Counted from the first letter of the stretch, positions 1 through 6,190 are shown. The stretch: DNA of 6,452 nt from Candidatus Fermentibacterales bacterium (GCA_016928495.1 JAFGKQ010000230.1:1-6452); one strand, 5' to 3'. Made by a program: numbers and translations. The notes: generated by a model from the letters alone, not told the origin.

Positions 1-1023
1 CCTCCTCTGGGCGAACAGGGCTATCCCCGGAAGGGCGAGCAGGGCGCAGACCGCCGGTATCGCCGCGCGTAGCCCGCGCGATCCGGACGCCCCGGCGGAG
101 GCCGGGACAATGCCCGTCCAGACTGCAAGGGAGATGGCCGCCGAGGCCAGGAAGGGCACGTAGTACCTCATCTGGAAGTAGGCGTTGGGTTGGGTGAGGA
201 GTGCGGCGAGCAGCAGGAGCCCCGTAGCGAGGATATGCGGGCGCAGGCGTCGCTCCCGATGCAGGGCCGACAGGGGCAGCAGGGCGAGCATGAGCGGGGA
301 GGAGAGGGCAAGGCCCTTGAGCAGGCCTACGATGTCGACGGAGCCTCCCGATCCCGCCAGGGCCAGGGCCGCCTTCGCGTAGAAGGGGGCTGGAAGCGGT
401 CTGCCTGTCGAGTAGAGGTTCCAGCTTGCCCACAGAGAGCCCGCCACGATCGCCGGCAGAAGCAGGGGCGCAAGGGATGCACCGCCTCTCCTGCCCGCGC
501 GCGCTGCAAGTGCGAGAGGCAGCGCCAGCACTGCCATCTCGGGTCTGACCAGGATCGCAACCCCCAGCACGATGCCGGCGCCTGCAGTTCCTGAAGTCGA
601 GTCGTATAGCTTGTCAAAGTAGTTATGTGTAACCACAACTATCAACACAGCTAGACCGGTCTCCATCCCCGAGGAGGAGTGGAACAGGAAGGGCCCCGTC
701 AGCAGAAGCGGAACGGTCCACCGTCGTCTCGAGGCCACGAGCAGGGCGAGAGCCGCAGCCCCGGCTCCCATGAGCATGATGACTCGCGGTGCGGCGCTTC
801 CCGAGGTTGCTGCCACGGAGGCCAGCAGCGTCCAGAGAGGCGAGGTCGTGCCGGAGGAGGGGGCTGCTCCGTGAGAGTAGCGCATGAACTCGCCCTGCAC
901 GATGCTCCGGCCGTAGGTGAGATGTATGTAGGTATCGTCCATGGGCGGGACGCCGTATGGATGCACTGCTATGAGGATGGCCAGTCCCGCCAGGAACAGA
1001 CAGATCGGAGCGGCAGCACGCAC
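1..1023 (-). CDS. GT-C (PMT/ArnT-like) membrane glycosyltransferase, C-terminus cut by window edge
   Basis: The minus-strand frame stays open from a GTG at 1023 to the left edge, giving 341 N-terminal residues. It is strongly hydrophobic, with many predicted membrane helices, the first at about residues 5-20. A short loop follows with the Asp-Asp pair D29-D30 (PMDDTYIHLTYGR), the usual position of the catalytic acidic residue in lipid-phosphate-sugar-dependent GT-C enzymes. Further family-like marks are SGTTSPLW (57-64), SGMET (118-122), RPE (160-162), a loop resembling NLYSTGRPLPAPFYAK, and a late MRYYVPFLA segment. The GTG was chosen because a G-rich Shine-Dalgarno-like run lies just upstream (minus strand ACCGGGGGGTATCCA) and a signal-anchor helix begins at once. 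The likely role is transfer of a sugar from a polyprenyl-phosphate donor at the membrane; donor and acceptor cannot be told. It is transcribed divergently from acpS and probably unrelated to that operon. The family call is confident, the exact subfamily is not. Confidence 0.8.
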   Translation of the reverse strand, partial: MRAAAPICLFLAGLAILIAVHPYGVPPMDDTYIHLTYGRSIVQGEFMRYSHGAAPSSGTTSPLWTLLASVAATSGSAAPRVIMLMGAGAAALALLVASRRRWTVPLLLTGPFLFHSSSGMETGLAVLIVVVTHNYFDKLYDSTSGTAGAGIVLGVAILVRPEMAVLALPLALAARAGRRGGASLAPLLLPAIVAGSLWASWNLYSTGRPLPAPFYAKAALALAGSGGSVDIVGLLKGLALSSPLMLALLPLSALHRERRLRPHILATGLLLLAALLTQPNAYFQMRYYVPFLASAAISLAVWTGIVPASAGASGSRGLRAAIPAVCALLALPGIALFAQRR

Positions 1024-1079
1024 TGGATACCCCCCGGTGAGGTCAGGCAGAAGACAGAGATGGCGTCGACGTATCGGTC

Positions 1080-1108
1080 TGGACACCCCGCAGGAATATA
1101 GCTAACAT
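1080..1108 (+). promoter_or_regulatory. Candidate sigma70-like promoter of the acpS-acs-acp-kbl-satP operon
   Basis: TGGACA at 1080-1085 (5 of 6 to the -35 consensus) is followed after 17 bases by TAACAT at 1103-1108 (4 of 6 to -10). This is the only AT-rich island in the divergent intergenic region and it faces acpS. Transcription would start near 1115, inside the hairpin at 1110-1138, leaving a leader of about 75 nt. This is a consensus match only; the sigma factor preferences of this organism are unknown. Confidence 0.35.
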
Positions 1109-1191: not shown

Positions 1192-1578
1192 ATGATCCTC
1201 GGCGTCGGGATCGAGATCGTAGATGTTCCGGAGCTCCGTGAGAAGCTGGACGGCTCTTTCGAGAGCGGGATCTTCCTTGCGTCGGAGCTGGACTACGCTC
1301 GGTCCCTTCTGCGCCCATGGGAGCACATTGCCGCAAGGCTGGCCGCGAAGCGGGCCCTGTGGAAGGCTCTGGGAGCCTCTCCGGGAGCTTCCATGCTCGA
1401 CGTGGAAGTGACGCGCCGCGCCAACGGAGAGGTTGGCATCTCGCTACACGGGGAGGCTCGCCGGATCGCGATCGAAGCTGGCGTTGCCGCATGTCATGTA
1501 TCGCTCTCGCACACGGCCGGCATGGCGGTGGCTGTGGTGCTGACCGAGGGCCGTTCGCCGGGGAAGGAGCAGGATTGA
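1192..1578 (+). CDS. acpS: AcpS-type holo-[acyl-carrier-protein] synthase (4'-phosphopantetheinyl transferase), divergent active site
   Basis: This 128-residue protein has the length and order of the AcpS family, which transfers 4'-phosphopantetheine from CoA to a serine of a carrier protein. Visible marks are the N-terminal strand MILGVGIEIVDV, F28-to-Y35 (FLASELDY) matching the family 'F-x-x-x-E' stretch, the long helix RLAAKRALWKALG (49-61), and the C-terminal HVSLSHTAGMAVAVV (102-116). Start: ATG 1192, with GGGAGG at 1177-1182 nine bases upstream. Two expected Mg-binding acids are changed: the Asp of the GxDI motif is E8, and the Glu of the 'AAKEA' helix is R54 (codon CGG). The enzyme may therefore be altered, non-catalytic, or tuned to a particular partner. 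It is the first gene of the operon and its stop overlaps the next start, so its natural target is probably the carrier protein two genes downstream. The family call is strong; activity is uncertain. Confidence 0.85.
   Translation: MILGVGIEIVDVPELREKLDGSFESGIFLASELDYARSLLRPWEHIAARLAAKRALWKALGASPGASMLDVEVTRRANGEVGISLHGEARRIAIEAGVAACHVSLSHTAGMAVAVVLTEGRSPGKEQD
1564..1577 (+). promoter_or_regulatory. Ribosome binding site that fixes the TTG start of the acetyl-CoA synthetase
   Basis: AAGGAG (1564-1569) lies five bases before TTG (1575-1577). The TTG overlaps the acpS stop TGA (1576-1578) as TTGA, an arrangement typical of translational coupling. The frame is open further upstream to an ATG at 1317, but that stretch is acpS read out of frame, whereas similarity to acetyl-CoA synthetases begins just after the TTG (SYEERLRGFDW). 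Confidence 0.75.
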
Positions 1579-3326
1579 GCAACATAGGATCCTACGAGGA
1601 AAGGCTCAGAGGCTTTGACTGGACCATCGCGCGCAAGGCTCTGGACTGGGACGAGAGCAGGGACATCCTCAACATCGGCTGGATCTGCTCCGATCGGGTC
1701 TGCGAGCGAATGGGCCTGGCGGACAAGACCGCGCTGATCTGGGAAGGCTTCGGCGAGCGCAGGTCGGTCTACACCTACGACGATGTCAGGGTCTACTCGA
1801 ACGGCTTCGCGAGCTTCCTCGCAGGTCTGGGCCTCGAGGTGGGGGACAGGGTCTGCATCTTCATGGACAGGATTCCCAGTCTCTACATCTCGTTCCTTGG
1901 TGTCCTGAAGGCGGGTTGCATCGCTCAGCCTCTCTTCTCCGCCTTCGGCGACGAGTCCCTGGAGGTCCGGTTGGCCAGCGCTGAGACCCGCGCCATCCTC
2001 ACAACGCAGAAGCACGTGAAGAAGGTCCGGAAGATACTCGAGAAGCTGCCTTCCCTGGAGCTCGTGATCCTGGTCGAGGGAGAAAGCGAGAAGCTGAGAG
2101 AGGGCGAGATCCTCTACGAGATGGAGAAGGCCCCCCGAGTCGAGAGCTTCGAGGTGAGGGCCTCCGGGCCCGAGGTGCCGTCGGTTCTGCACTATACCTC
2201 GGGGACCACGGGCATGCCCAAGGGCGCCCTGCACGTCCACGGCTCCATATGGGGCCAGGCGCTGACGACTCTATGGGTGCTCGACCTGAAGCCGGACGAC
2301 ATCTACTGGTGCACTGCCGACCCCGGCTGGGTCACGGGAACCAGCTACGGCATCATCGGACCATGGTCGCTTGGCATCACTCAATGCGTTCTGGACAGCG
2401 GGTTCACCGCTGAGAGGTGGTACAGGTTCATCCAGGAGAACAGGGTCACGGTCTGGTACTCGGCCCCGACGGCCATCCGTTCCCTGATGAGAGAGGGCGA
2501 CGAGGTCGTCCGGAAGCACGACCTGTCCAGCCTCAGGCATCTGGCGTCGGTGGGTGAGCCCCTCAACGCCGAGGCCGTCATCTGGAGCCAGAAGGTCCTC
2601 GGGTTGCCCTTCCGTGACAACTTCTGGCAGACGGAGACCGGCTCCATCATGATCGCCAACTACCCCGGGATGGAGATAAGGCCGGGCTCGATGGGCAAGC
2701 CCTTCCCCGGCATCGAGGCTACCGTGCTCGACCTGAAGACCCATGCGCCGATCGAGCAGCCCGGCAGGGTCGGCCTGATCGCCTTCCGCCCCGGCTGGCC
2801 CGCGATGTTCAGGGAGTACTGGAACAAGCCGGATGTCTACAGGAGCAAGTTCTACGGCGACGTCGGGAGCAAGAGCCCCCGGGAGCTCAGGCTCGATCCA
2901 GGCGTCTGGTACTCGTCGGGCGACAGGGCCAGCATCGACGCAGACGGCTACTTCTGGTTCGTGGGCCGCGATGACGACGTCATCAACACCGGCGGGCACC
3001 TCGTGGGGCCCTTCGAGATCGAGTCTGCCCTGATCGAGCACGAGGCGGTTGCAGAGGCGGCCGCCGTCGGCAAGCCGGACGAGGTCAACATGGAGGTGGT
3101 CAAGGCCTTCGTTACTCTGAACCCCGGGTTCGAGCCTTCCGGCGACCTCGAGCTCGACATCATGAACTTCATAAGGAAGAGGCTCTCGCCTCTTGCCATG
3201 CCGCAGGAGATCGAGTTCACGGAGAAGCTGCCCAAGACCAGGTCGGGGAAGATACTCAGGCGCTACCTTCACGCACTGGAGTGGGGAGAGGACGTGGGCG
3301 ACCTCTCGACACTCGAGGACGACTAG
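1575..3326 (+). CDS. acsA: AMP-forming acetyl-CoA synthetase (acetate--CoA ligase), AcsA-like
   Basis: The 583-residue length equals the Bacillus AcsA type. It activates acetate with ATP to acetyl-AMP, then transfers the acetyl group to CoA or possibly to a phosphopantetheine arm. ANL-family motifs appear in order: P-loop YTSGTTGMPKG (207-217), DIYWCTADPGWVTGTSYG (242-259), VWYSAPTA (293-300), SVGEPLN (325-331), FWQTETG (350-356), SSGD (447-450), hinge GRDDDVI (464-470), and the C-terminal LPKTRSGKILRR with catalytic Lys K559. W351 matches the Trp that limits the acyl pocket to acetate in Salmonella Acs, arguing for a small acyl substrate. K559 sits in the PKTRSGK context known to be controlled by lysine acetylation in Acs enzymes. 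Oddities: the adenine-side Trp is F350, and the Arg of the usual SGHR/SGYR hinge motif is L476 (GGHLVG, 473-478). It is coupled to acpS by a TTGA overlap, and the acp start lies 49 nt downstream. A propionate- or acyl-ACP-directed variant remains possible. Confidence 0.88.
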   Translation: MSNIGSYEERLRGFDWTIARKALDWDESRDILNIGWICSDRVCERMGLADKTALIWEGFGERRSVYTYDDVRVYSNGFASFLAGLGLEVGDRVCIFMDRIPSLYISFLGVLKAGCIAQPLFSAFGDESLEVRLASAETRAILTTQKHVKKVRKILEKLPSLELVILVEGESEKLREGEILYEMEKAPRVESFEVRASGPEVPSVLHYTSGTTGMPKGALHVHGSIWGQALTTLWVLDLKPDDIYWCTADPGWVTGTSYGIIGPWSLGITQCVLDSGFTAERWYRFIQENRVTVWYSAPTAIRSLMREGDEVVRKHDLSSLRHLASVGEPLNAEAVIWSQKVLGLPFRDNFWQTETGSIMIANYPGMEIRPGSMGKPFPGIEATVLDLKTHAPIEQPGRVGLIAFRPGWPAMFREYWNKPDVYRSKFYGDVGSKSPRELRLDPGVWYSSGDRASIDADGYFWFVGRDDDVINTGGHLVGPFEIESALIEHEAVAEAAAVGKPDEVNMEVVKAFVTLNPGFEPSGDLELDIMNFIRKRLSPLAMPQEIEFTEKLPKTRSGKILRRYLHALEWGEDVGDLSTLEDD

Positions 3327-3375
3327 CGCCGGAAACCAACCGGGTTCACCGGGACTGAGAAGGGAAGAAGATCAG

Positions 3376-3630
3376 ATGGACGACATCAAGGATGCCGTGC
3401 TCGAGTACGTAGTCGACGAATACGTCGACGAGGACGACGACATCGAGGTCGGTTATGAGACTCCCCTGATTTCATCCGGGCTCGTGGACAGCTTCTCGAT
3501 GGTCTCCCTGAAGGTCTTTCTCGAGAAGAGGTACAGCATCAGCCTTCCGGACAACGAGGCGACCCCCGAGGCTTTCGACAACGTCAACTCGATAGCGAGC
3601 CTGGTTCGCAGGCATCTGGGCCAGGGCTAG
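3376..3630 (+). CDS. Stand-alone acyl carrier protein (phosphopantetheine-binding)
   Basis: This 84-residue acidic protein has a four-helix carrier-protein pattern. The phosphopantetheine site is S39 in SGLVDSFSMVSL (34-45), with DSF instead of the common DSL. Then come a helix II/III region (LKVFLEKRYSIS, LPDNEATPEAFDNVNSIASLV) and a short C-terminal helix. The N-terminus is very acidic (DEYVDEDDDIEV, 14-25). Start: ATG 3376 behind AGGGAAGAAG (3361-3370); the frame is open upstream to 3193, but that part overlaps the synthetase gene in another frame. The overall look is closer to discrete carriers working with AMP ligases (DltC-like, or those near serine palmitoyltransferases) than to fatty-acid-synthesis AcpP. 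It sits between acetyl-CoA synthetase and Kbl, with an AcpS homologue in the same operon, so it probably carries the acyl group handed from one to the other. That role is inferred from position only. Confidence 0.88.
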   Translation: MDDIKDAVLEYVVDEYVDEDDDIEVGYETPLISSGLVDSFSMVSLKVFLEKRYSISLPDNEATPEAFDNVNSIASLVRRHLGQG

Positions 3631-3642
3631 ACGAAGCGGAGA

Positions 3643-3673
3643 GTGGACGCCCGCCCGCATCCACGGGGCGGGC
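3643..3673 (+). repeat. Two mutually exclusive hairpins in the acp-kbl spacer
   Basis: In the 75-nt spacer, GCCCGCCC (3649-3656) pairs perfectly with GGGCGGGC (3666-3673) around a 9-nt loop. An alternative stem pairs GTGGA-C-GC (3643-3650) with GC-A-TCCAC (3657-3664), seven pairs plus one mismatch. Both use 3649-3650, and the loop of the first stem supplies one arm of the second, so only one can form. No U-run follows, so this is not a normal terminator. It could stabilise or process the mRNA between acp and kbl, or modulate kbl expression; its function is unknown. Confidence 0.5.
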
Positions 3674-3705
3674 AAGCTGCGCTCAACGAAAGGAAGTGAG
3701 GCTGG

Positions 3706-4953
3706 ATGGCCTACTCGGATACCGTAAGGAAGATCTTCGGTCAGGAGATCGAGGAGATCAAGAGCAGGGGCCTCTACAAGGAGAAGCGCTTCATCTGCTC
3801 TCCCCAGGATGCGACCATCCGCGTGGAGTACCCCGAGGGGGCCGAGACGACCGAGGTCCTGAACTTCTGCGCCAACAACTACCTCGGCCTATCCAGTCAT
3901 CCCGAGGTGATCAAGGCTGCCCGTGAGGGTCTCGAGTCCCGCGGCTACGGGATGAGCTCCGTCAGGTTCATCTGCGGAACGCAGGACATCCACCGCGAGC
4001 TCCAGACGAAGCTCACCGACTTCCTGGGGACGGAGGACACGCTTCTCTTCCCTTCCTGCATGGACGCGAACGCCGGCGTGTTCGAGGCCGTACTGGGCAA
4101 GGAGGACGTGATGATAGCCGACAGGCTCATCCACGCCTCTCTCGTCGACGGGATAAGGCTCTGCTCCGCCGAGTACGACACCTTCAAGCACATGGACACG
4201 AAGCACCTCGAGAAGAAGCTCCAGCAGCACAGCGACAAGAGGGCCAGGATGGTCGTGACCGACGGCGTCTTCTCGATGGACGGAGATCTGGCCCCACTGG
4301 ACGAGATGGTGGCTCTCTGCGAGAAGTACGATTCCATGATCCTTGTAGACGACTCTCACGCCTCGGGCTTTATAGGGAAGACCGGAAGAGGCACCCACGA
4401 GCACTTCGGGGTGATGGGCAGGATCGACATCATCACCACGACACTGGGCAAGGCGCTCGGAGGCGCCTCCGGCGGCTGCGTCTCGGGCCGCAGGGAGCTC
4501 GTCGAGCTCTGCAGGCAGAAGGCCAGGCCCTACCTGTTCAGCAACTCCCTCTCTCCGGTCATAGTGGCCGCATCCATACGTGTGATAGACCTGATCTCGA
4601 AGACGACCGAGAGGCGCGACAAGCTCGAGTGGAACACGAAGTACTTCAGGGAAAGGATCACGGCCGCCGGGCTCAACGTGAGGCCGGGCGAGACGCCGAT
4701 CGTGCCCGTCATGCTGTACAACGCCAAGCTCGCTAACGACATGGCGCGTGACATGTACGCCGAGGGCATCTACGTGATCGGTTTCTTCTTCCCGGTCGTC
4801 CCGGCAGGCGCCGCCAGGATAAGGGTCCAGCTCTCCGCCGCGCACGAGAAGGAGCACATAGACAAGTGCGTCGAGGCCTTCAGGAAGGTGGGGAACAAGT
4901 ACGGCATCCTCGGCCTGGACAAGAACGGCATCATAGAGAAGTACGGGATGTAG
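3706..4953 (+). CDS. kbl: Glycine C-acetyltransferase (2-amino-3-ketobutyrate CoA ligase)
   Basis: This 415-residue PLP-dependent alpha-oxoamine synthase reversibly condenses acetyl-CoA and glycine to 2-amino-3-ketobutyrate plus CoA, in the cytosol. It follows E. coli Kbl closely: LNFCANNYLGLSSHPEVI (52-69), SVRFICGTQDIHREL (85-99), HAS (143-145), TDGVFSMDGDLAPLDE (185-200), VDDSHASGF (214-222; D215 binds the PLP ring nitrogen, H218 lies by it), TTLGKALGGASGG (245-257; K249 is the PLP lysine), RPYLFSNSLSP (274-284), GFFFPVVPAGAARIR (359-373; R373 should bind the substrate carboxylate). All expected catalytic residues are present. A short C-terminal extension beyond the E. coli end (LGLDKNGIIEKYGM) is unusual. 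Start: ATG 3706 after AGGAAGTGAGG (3691-3701). The usual partner, threonine dehydrogenase, is absent here; the neighbours are acetate activation, a carrier protein and an acetate transporter. Related serine palmitoyltransferases and AONS enzymes are less likely given the very Kbl-like substrate-side sequence. Confidence 0.92.
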   Translation: MAYSDTVRKIFGQEIEEIKSRGLYKEKRFICSPQDATIRVEYPEGAETTEVLNFCANNYLGLSSHPEVIKAAREGLESRGYGMSSVRFICGTQDIHRELQTKLTDFLGTEDTLLFPSCMDANAGVFEAVLGKEDVMIADRLIHASLVDGIRLCSAEYDTFKHMDTKHLEKKLQQHSDKRARMVVTDGVFSMDGDLAPLDEMVALCEKYDSMILVDDSHASGFIGKTGRGTHEHFGVMGRIDIITTTLGKALGGASGGCVSGRRELVELCRQKARPYLFSNSLSPVIVAASIRVIDLISKTTERRDKLEWNTKYFRERITAAGLNVRPGETPIVPVMLYNAKLANDMARDMYAEGIYVIGFFFPVVPAGAARIRVQLSAAHEKEHIDKCVEAFRKVGNKYGILGLDKNGIIEKYGM

Positions 4954-4990
4954 CTCGCTTCAGGGCCTGATAATCCGACAGGGGGAGGAC

Positions 4991-5542
4991 ATGGGGGAAA
5001 GCAGAGCGAACCCTGCGCCGCTGGGCCTCATGGGTTTCGGCATGACCACGGTTCTGCTCAACATCCACAACGCGGGGCTCTTTGCCATGGACACGATGAT
5101 CCTCTCCATGGGCATCTTCTATGGCGGCCTGGCCCAGATCATCGCGGGGATCATGGAGTTCAGGAACGGCAACACCTTCGGCCTGACCGCGTTCACCAGC
5201 TACGGCCTCTTCTGGCTCAGCCTGGTGTTCATCGTCCTGAAGGGTGGAGCCGATCCCGTCTTCATGGGCTGGTACCTCTTTATGTGGGGGCTCTTCACGG
5301 GCTACATGTGGCTGGGCACCTGGAGGAAGAACAGGGCCCTGCAGACGGTCTTCCTGTCGCTCACGGTGCTGTTCTGGCTGCTCGCAATAGGCCACTGGGC
5401 CGACTCGACGGTCTTCGTGAGGATAGCCGGCTGGGAGGGCATCTTCTGCGGCATGTCAGCCGTGTACCTGGCCGCTGCCGAGGTGCTCAGCGAGGCGAGG
5501 GGAAAGGCCCTGCTCCCGATCGGGGTGGTCGGCAGGAGGTAG
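4991..5542 (+). CDS. satP: Acetate/succinate:proton symporter, SatP (YaaH/GPR1/FUN34) family
   Basis: This 183-residue inner-membrane protein has six hydrophobic segments, at about residues 11-32, 35-56, 62-83, 90-110, 116-136 and 143-166. The family signature NPAPLGL is at 7-13, followed by GFGMTTVLLNIHNAG, MGIFYGGLAQIIAGIMEF (40-57) and GNTFGLTAFTSYG (60-72), which match E. coli SatP almost residue for residue as I recall it. The C-terminal part (LTVLFWLLAIGHWA, AGWEGIFCGMSAVYLA, LLPIG) also agrees. The family moves acetate (and succinate) with protons as a homohexameric channel-like transporter. Start: ATG 4991 directly after GGGGGAGG (4981-4988). It lies 37 nt after kbl as the last gene of the cluster, which fits supply of acetate to the acetyl-CoA synthetase, or export of acetate if the pathway runs backwards. 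Its 3' end overlaps the convergent minus-strand reading frame by 56 bp. Confidence 0.93.
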   Translation: MGESRANPAPLGLMGFGMTTVLLNIHNAGLFAMDTMILSMGIFYGGLAQIIAGIMEFRNGNTFGLTAFTSYGLFWLSLVFIVLKGGADPVFMGWYLFMWGLFTGYMWLGTWRKNRALQTVFLSLTVLFWLLAIGHWADSTVFVRIAGWEGIFCGMSAVYLAAAEVLSEARGKALLPIGVVGRR

Positions 5543-6005
5543 CGCCGGTCCCGTCCGGGCTGTACCATCTGGGCCTGCGGGGGGACTCGCCCGTCCTGCC
5601 GGAGCCATTCCGGAGGTACGAGACCGGCCCCGCTCCGGGCAGGTCCCTGACGGCCGGACCTCCCCCTGCGGTCTCGGGCAACTCCGGCGCCCGGGATATC
5701 GCGAGCCTGACCACGGGCCTCTTCAGGATCATCACGGTCCCGCCCATCGCGTCACCCAGGGCAGCGACCTGCCAGCCTTCGGACTGGTGCTCGGCGATGA
5801 TGGAGGCCATGCTGTCGCGGAGCTTCCAGAACAGCTGGATCACCTGGTGCTCGTAGCTCGTTCCGTCCCTGGCCATGACAAGGACGTTGCGGCCCGACAT
5901 CTCACCCAGGGAGACGACGCTCCAGCCGTTCTCCTGGCCTGACGAGATCACCCTGGCGAGCTGGGCCCTGCTCTTCCAGTCCGCCGGCACGATCATGTGC
6001 TCCAT
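5487..6005 (-). CDS. Hypothetical protein with two tandem 50-residue repeats (DUF4177-like) and a Pro/Gly-rich tail
   Basis: The call is 172 residues from ATG 6005, preceded on the minus strand by AAGGA seven bases upstream; the frame is open further up but without family-like sequence. Residues 2-46 and 52-96 are tandem copies at a gapless 50-residue offset, sharing E-H, W-K, R, A, I, Q, G-W, V, L-G, G, V and R. Each copy reads as a strand, a helix, then GW-x-V-x-x-LG and a closing strand; the second ends in ILKRP. This resembles the small DUF4177-type fold, where a GW motif precedes two strands, but I cannot confirm membership. Residues 98-172 are rich in Pro, Gly, Arg and Ser and probably disordered; this tail overlaps the end of satP on the opposite strand. 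No signal peptide or membrane helix is seen, so it is probably cytosolic. Function is unknown. The repeat part is convincing coding sequence; the tail is less so. Confidence 0.68.
   Translation of the reverse strand: MEHMIVPADWKSRAQLARVISSGQENGWSVVSLGEMSGRNVLVMARDGTSYEHQVIQLFWKLRDSMASIIAEHQSEGWQVAALGDAMGGTVMILKRPVVRLAISRAPELPETAGGGPAVRDLPGAGPVSYLRNGSGRTGESPRRPRWYSPDGTGATSCRPPRSGAGPFPSPR
5620..5675. repeat. Nested inverted repeats downstream of satP
   Basis: GAGACCG (5620-5626) pairs with CGGTCTC (5669-5675). Inside it, AGGTCC (5641-5646) pairs with GGACCT (5656-5661) around a 9-nt loop. The two stems can stack as one interrupted hairpin between the convergent genes, inside the Pro/Gly-rich tail of the minus-strand frame. 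It could end or protect the satP transcript, but no U-run follows, and short stems are common in GC-rich DNA. Confidence 0.3.
5718..6002 (-). repeat. Tandem protein-level duplication within the hypothetical gene
   Basis: Copy 1 spans 5868-6002 (residues 2-46) and copy 2 spans 5718-5852 (residues 52-96), read on the minus strand. The alignment needs no gaps at an offset of 50 residues and gives about 16 identities in 45 positions, including W10/W60, K11/K61, G27-W28/G77-W78, L33-G34/L83-G84 and R46/R96. The DNA copies have diverged well beyond simple repeats, so the duplication is old and the shared residues have been kept. Confidence 0.75.
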
Positions 6006-6190
6006 CTCGCGTCCTTCTCTACCCCTCAGCACCCGGTGAAGCAATCCGCTTGCCAGACTCCGATGACAAGCAAGAGACGCCAGGAGGCAATAAAAGGAAC
6101 CGGTCGCTACCCTCGGCAGTGGTCGGGCGTTGGCTTCCGCAAACTCGTGCACATCGGGTATCCGGGCATGCATACCTGCCGCTGGCGGCC
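6006..6190 (-). other. Intergenic stretch between two minus-strand genes, no firm feature
   Basis: These 185 bp lie between the stop of the right-edge gene and the start of the repeat protein gene. A short stem, GCCGC/GCGGC (6178-6182 with 6185-6189), lies one base past the upstream stop with only a 2-nt loop, and GGTAT/ATACC (6157-6161 with 6172-6176) is a weak inverted repeat. A TTGTCA box on the minus strand (6064-6069) resembles a -35 element but has no good -10 partner. The promoter of the downstream gene is probably here but cannot be placed. Confidence 0.3.

Follow-up and report, generated by a model that had tools for sequence, protein, structure and literature searches.

What role does a small, discrete acyl carrier protein (ACP) play between the genes for an acetate-activating ligase and a glycine C-acetyltransferase (Kbl), an enzyme whose textbook reaction uses acetyl-coenzyme A (acetyl-CoA)? 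The question is raised by an operon on a contig of 6,452 bases from a Candidatus Fermentibacterales bacterium (GCA_016928495.1 JAFGKQ010000230.1:1-6452), which in its entirety is called the window here and belongs to a metagenome-assembled genome (MAG G000) that is 81% complete. The answer we favour, with moderate confidence, is that the three genes set up a private acetyl-carrier system, which serves a dedicated paralogue of Kbl, hereafter KblA. The evidence suggests that the reaction of acetate with glycine would proceed on a protein carrier kept for it and not on CoA. It comprises gene identities, their conservation, the KblA clade, catalytic residues, an acetate pocket and a change at one arginine position, all read from sequence; from these we infer that the carrier is loaded, that KblA uses it and which way the reaction runs.

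Five open reading frames (ORFs), all on the + strand, lie in the order acpS, ligase, acp, kbl and satP. Their coordinates, with two codons that matter to the argument, are as follows.

1192 to 1578, + strand: acpS-like 4'-phosphopantetheinyl transferase (PPTase), 128 aa, above the TIGR00556 and Pfam ACPS cut-offs
1575 to 3326, + strand: adenosine monophosphate (AMP)-forming acetate-activating ligase, 583 aa, TTG start, PRK04319 family; proposed acetate:[carrier protein] ligase
3000 to 3002, + strand: codon of ligase L476, at the position of Arg526 in acetyl-CoA synthetase (Acs); Leu fixed in all cluster ligases
3376 to 3630, + strand: discrete ACP, 84 aa, with a predicted carrier fold and invariant Ser39
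3490 to 3492, + strand: codon of Ser39, to which phosphopantetheine attaches (VDSFSM); unchanged across 81 sequences and at the N-terminus of helix II in the model
3706 to 4953, + strand: KblA, ACP-linked glycine C-acetyltransferase subfamily, 415 aa, assigned by TIGR01822, the linked clade, subfamily residues and a model
4991 to 5542, + strand: SatP/YaaH-family acetate transporter, 183 aa, above the AceTr_1 cut-off; an accessory partner

The initial annotation had described five same-strand genes with a start/stop overlap and gaps of 49, 75 and 37 nt, and these coordinates confirm it: the ligase start, TTG 1575, shares 4 nt with the end of acpS, and the gaps separate ligase from acp, acp from kbl and kbl from satP, respectively. 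The TTG start is supported because (M/L)SNIGSYE opens the proteins of relatives as well. A scan of the window found no terminator-like site between operon genes. The gene names proposed then also stand. The PPTase scores 60.3 bits against NCBIfam TIGR00556 pantethn_trn (cut-off 45.35), the ligase 730.7 bits against PRK04319 acetate--CoA ligase (narrowly above 729), Kbl 585.9 bits against TIGR01822 (far above 493) and the transporter 250.8 bits against AceTr_1 (cut-off 50), while the ACP is recognized by Ser39 and its fold.

The ACP itself lies below every curated cut-off. Its best NCBIfam match is the OlsHI ACP (NF052616; 64.6 bits against a required 130), and it scores 18.3 against Pfam PP-binding, where the gathering cut-off is 20.8; among 30 ACP relatives the OlsHI ACP model reaches a best E-value of 1.9e-19, similar to the 7.8e-18 of the window ACP. 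Though under these family thresholds, it is by sequence and predicted structure a carrier protein, because its Asp-Ser39 is invariant and a carrier fold is predicted (predicted local distance difference test, pLDDT, 88.9), with Ser39 beginning helix II. The nearest solved folds to the model are PigG, PltL and DltC.

The evidence that ties this carrier to both neighbors is its recurrence. When GTDB genomes were scanned with the ACP alignment, at least 533 carrier relatives were found, of which the best 80 loci were surveyed; the order test was limited to the 62 of these with room on both sides of the carrier. Ligase, ACP and Kbl occur in the same order and on the same strand in 54 of the 62, and the other eight keep ACP-Kbl only (five) or ligase-ACP only (three), with no ACP standing alone. 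Co-occurrence of acp with acs and kbl, which the initial annotation had proposed to look for, is thus borne out over these loci, where the carrier is never without ligase or Kbl. No natural fusion of the carrier to ligase or Kbl was found among the 80 loci. Since the order is kept in most loci and one partner is kept in the rest, the carrier appears to be a hub between two enzymes, and the strongest argument that it would serve both is precisely that two distinct pairs share one carrier.

Named genomes in the best 80 loci belong to Fermentibacterota, Eisenbacteria, Krumholzibacteriota, Gemmatimonadota, Latescibacterota, Fibrobacterota, Zixibacteria, Aminicenantes, Acidobacteriota, Ignavibacteriota, Bacteroidota, Chloroflexota, Planctomycetota, Elusimicrobiota, Armatimonadota, Riflebacteria, Coatesbacteria and KSB1. 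Phylum counts were taken from record titles and, as some MAG labels are doubtful, the spread is put at no fewer than 16 phylum-level groups. This recurrence rules out a chance or genome-specific arrangement, including the uniqueness to one genome that had been considered at the outset as fatal to the proposal. One pair of loci, titled Fibrobacter (L069) and Latescibacterota (L093), carries near-identical KblA proteins (tree branches of 0.021 and 0.006) under two phylum names, so one of the two labels is probably wrong.

Within Fermentibacterota the ACP is present in 34 of 42 genomes, at 65-77% identity in relatives, and in the loci read ligase and Kbl adjoin it in nearly all cases; it occurs in 3 of 18 sampled genomes outside the phylum. 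Among the Fermentibacterota genomes compared, the main Acs-like protein is the cluster ligase. ACP-positive genomes carry an Acs-like ligase with the sole exception of G018, and ACP-less genomes are without one, save for a fragment in the incomplete genome G031. Most loci come from MAGs, so absences may be gaps.

The loci that lack one partner deserve separate mention. ACP and KblA occur with no adjoining ligase in L049/L036 (G018), L059, L095, L103 and L122, and no cluster-type ligase was found elsewhere in the genome for the five ACP-Kbl loci; in L103 a short ligase-like remnant (7781-7906) precedes the ACP. Two of the three ligase-ACP loci come from genomes that encode a KblA at another site. 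In the third, L113 (CP070707; ligase and ACP at 6006-8249), no Kbl was found anywhere in the genome, which despite this encodes an SDR-type threonine dehydrogenase (Tdh).

KblA is distinct from the Kbl of the Tdh-Kbl pathway, while sharing much with it. Both belong to TIGR01822, their catalytic residues are kept, they are about 53% identical (window KblA against the E. coli enzyme), and Tdh is often nearby. KblA differs, however, in forming a separate clade, in a PEG insertion, in a shared set of replacements, in a C-terminal helix, and in being nearly always ACP-linked in the loci read. All 72 ACP-linked Kbls group together with a FastTree support of 99, computed with no bootstrap, and the clade is independently marked by the insertion and fixed residues; it lies apart from E. 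coli Kbl, from the second Kbls next door and from the canonical Kbls of relatives. The replacements, in E. coli numbering, are F112 to M, G240 to T, L264 to C, S268 to A and D334 to N. In the window protein the insertion spans residues 43-45, Met119, Thr245 and Asn339 are present, and the C-terminal extension includes a confidently predicted helix at 406-413. That KblA is a mislabelled serine palmitoyltransferase (SPT) or BioF is ruled out by score, identity and tree.

Of 38 trio genomes, about half have KblA as the sole Kbl found, roughly twelve of them together with a Tdh (hand tally); the notion that KblA is the only Kbl everywhere was rejected, as many genomes also have a CoA-type Kbl. This second enzyme, about 51-53% identical to the window Kbl, adjoins the trio in many loci, sometimes directly downstream (kbl at 4407-5582 and 7773-8993 in L035; 9700-10914 in L045; also L074, L075, L079, L081, L083, L090, L092 and L119), which suggests two Kbls in one cell with different thiol partners. 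In Anaerolineae a divergent Kbl-like gene (40-42% identity) directly follows KblA, at 9710-10861 in L071, 9712-10860 in L086, 1907-3058 in L104 and 9704-10882 in L108; the two copies scored reach 449-450 bits, under the TIGR01822 cut-off.

The impression that ligase and synthase are specific for acetate and glycine is backed by their residues. In the window ligase the pocket residues V253, T254, V326 and W351 and the catalytic K559 are conserved. In Acs the equivalent V310, T311, V386 and W414 (Salmonella/E. coli numbering), which form the acetate pocket, are matched in 64 of 64 cluster ligases at three sites and in 63 at W414. Similarly, the pyridoxal phosphate lysine, H136, D210, H213, R368 and Asn50 (E. 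coli numbering), the substrate and catalytic residues of Kbl, are invariant in the 72 KblA proteins. On sequence grounds, the chemistry of 2-amino-3-ketobutyrate (AKB), glycine and acetate is well supported for the trio.

The residues around CoA tell a more divided story. Arg191, Arg526 and Arg584 of Acs support CoA binding and thioester formation, with laboratories disagreeing on the size of the effect at Arg526 and Arg584 (PMC10455477). The position of Arg526 is Leu in 64 of 64 cluster ligases, and other Acs proteins in the compared genomes keep Arg there in 9 of 11 cases. Arg191 is mostly lost as well, in a region where the local alignment is uncertain; only the Arg526 change may be telling, because 9g79_B, the closest solved structure to the window ligase, also lacks Arg191. 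The cluster ligases resemble the AcsA short form (PRK04319; 9g79) in family score, acetate pocket and catalytic lysine, and differ from it in their fixed Leu and in pairing with an ACP.

A precedent exists in the AasR-AcpR-SPT system of rhodobacterial sphingolipid synthesis, in which AasR acylates its own AcpR only, not CoA, and SPT prefers acyl-AcpR (PMC9386255). There, too, an AMP-forming ligase, a dedicated ACP and an alpha-oxoamine synthase are linked in this order, so the sphingolipid parallel drawn in the initial annotation was apt. The predicted substrates of the trio are, however, acetate and glycine rather than a fatty acid and serine. Orthology was rejected at identities of 23% (ligase/AasR), 25% (ACP/AcpR) and 31% (Kbl/SPT), with Kbl far nearer E. 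coli Kbl at 53%. By analogy the trio would work like this module but lies outside it, as the logic is the same and the genes are not orthologous. In E. coli BL21 the ligase and ACP genes have a reductase-type SDR gene between them, comparable to the SDR threonine dehydrogenases near some trios. The pairs DltA-DltC, PigI-PigG and PltF-PltL and glycine:[carrier protein] ligase likewise rely on a small discrete carrier of the same fold that receives its cargo straight from an adenylating enzyme of its own, but there the cargo is an amino acid, the pathways served are others, and the carriers are only 21-30% identical.

In the favoured scheme, the AcpS-like PPTase would add phosphopantetheine to the small carrier, presumably converting apo-ACP to holo-ACP. 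Acetate, imported by SatP or made within the cell, would be activated by AMP-forming chemistry and its acetyl group passed by the ligase to the carrier thiol. KblA would then interconvert acetyl-S-ACP plus glycine and AKB plus holo-ACP, with AKB and threonine exchanged where Tdh adjoins the trio. Run synthetically, acetate and glycine would yield AKB, and then threonine or aminoacetone. An irreversible ligase could hold the private carrier at an acetyl-to-free ratio much above that of the CoA pool, and this could let KblA condense while a CoA-dependent Kbl in the same cell cleaves. We are inclined towards synthesis because pairing a private carrier with an AMP-forming ligase makes sense as a way to drive condensation, and because the sole characterised analogue, AasR-AcpR-SPT, runs synthetically.

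Several observations sit uneasily with such a private carrier. The five ACP-KblA loci without a ligase are awkward if the ligase is the sole source of acetyl-ACP. Arg584 is kept in 64 of 64 ligases, and the loss of Arg191 is shared with 9g79_B, a solved short acetyl-CoA synthetase, so the ligase may yet use CoA. Among the diverse trio genomes tested, about half gave no recognisable Tdh, which means that threonine is not a universal partner, and a search for ThrC gave no clean link between its presence and the trio. Finally, the 80 loci were chosen by carrier similarity and are mostly MAGs.

The link to threonine is accordingly partial, yet the operon is less removed from Tdh than the initial annotation had held. 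At least 17 of the 80 loci carry a zinc-type (MDR) or SDR-type Tdh no farther than 8 kb from the trio, and in L101, L109 and L114 it is co-directional and directly upstream. A widespread CoA-independent synthesis of threonine, in which KblA would condense the private acetyl-carrier with glycine and Tdh reduce the product, bypassing homoserine, apart from the CoA pool and against the normal direction of Kbl, is a tentative and rather doubtful extension. The idea that KblA replaces ThrC-dependent synthesis was rejected, because ThrC is missing from relatives without the trio as well and is present in most trio genomes that lack Tdh.

Kbl chemistry favours cleavage, which is also what the Tdh-Kbl pair is known for. 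The same module might run in reverse, an unlikely alternative in which threonine gives AKB, KblA and holo-ACP release glycine and acetyl-ACP, the ligase makes acetate and adenosine triphosphate from acetyl-ACP, AMP and pyrophosphate, and SatP exports the acetate. The Tdh neighbors, often partnering the genome's only Kbl, are in keeping with this, as are SatP near 10 of the 80 loci and several hosts that are, judged by name, anaerobic fermenters; CoA would do equally well, though, a CoA-type Kbl and Tdh are already present in many hosts, about half of the diverse trio genomes lack a recognisable Tdh, and AMP-forming ligases usually work towards activation.

It is less probable still that an ordinary acetyl-CoA synthetase and an ordinary CoA-dependent Kbl are merely co-regulated with an ACP of another process. 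Against the family scores of both enzymes, the retained Arg584 and catalytic lysine and the likeness to 9g79_B stand an ACP placed between both genes across phyla and never alone, a separate KblA clade often coexisting with CoA-type Kbl, and the replacement of Arg526 in all 64 ligases. A secondary metabolite or lipid head group made from a non-acetate, non-glycine substrate, as by the carrier-linked oxoamine synthases of sphingolipids, prodigiosin and saxitoxin, is very improbable: lipid and natural-product loci are known to hold ligase-ACP-oxoamine synthase sets (PMC9386255) and two of the fixed replacements in KblA lie close to the cofactor (F112M and G240T), but the acetate pocket and Kbl residues are all kept, no tailoring, lipid, nonribosomal peptide or polyketide synthase gene recurs near the trio in the 80 loci, and the many-phylum spread suggests core metabolism.

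No description of a carrier-dependent Kbl was found in openly licensed papers, and the private acetyl-carrier system seems to be undescribed. If it is real, a textbook acetyl-CoA reaction has a second, carrier-protein form, spread over many phyla of bacteria that are little studied and served by a ligase, a carrier and an enzyme subfamily of its own, which databases currently list as ordinary acetate--CoA ligase and glycine C-acetyltransferase. Ligase-ACP-oxoamine synthase assemblies would then have arisen in core amino-acid metabolism too, beyond lipid and natural-product pathways, and metabolic models of hundreds of genomes, many uncultured, would need correcting.

The remaining genes are less constant. 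An acpS gene is carried by 42 of the 80 loci, and in about half of the related loci it stands ahead of the trio. SatP, which had been counted as part of the operon, is a genuine AceTr_1 member here; lying near 10 of the 80 loci, it is a frequent accessory, not core, partner. Upstream of the operon lies one further feature.

1080 to 1108, + strand: sigma-70-like promoter match TGGACA-17-TAACAT, a consensus match only

On the - strand, an ORF at 5487-6008 consists of two similar halves (GWSVVSLGEMSGRNVLVMARDG / GWQVAALGDAMGGTVMILKRP), has no family match and overlaps the end of satP convergently. At the other end of the window (1-1086, - strand), a membrane protein bears a weak likeness to the LA_3751/LA_3752 glycosyltransferase family; several Fermentibacterota have a homologue of this protein (39-41%) upstream of the trio in divergent orientation.

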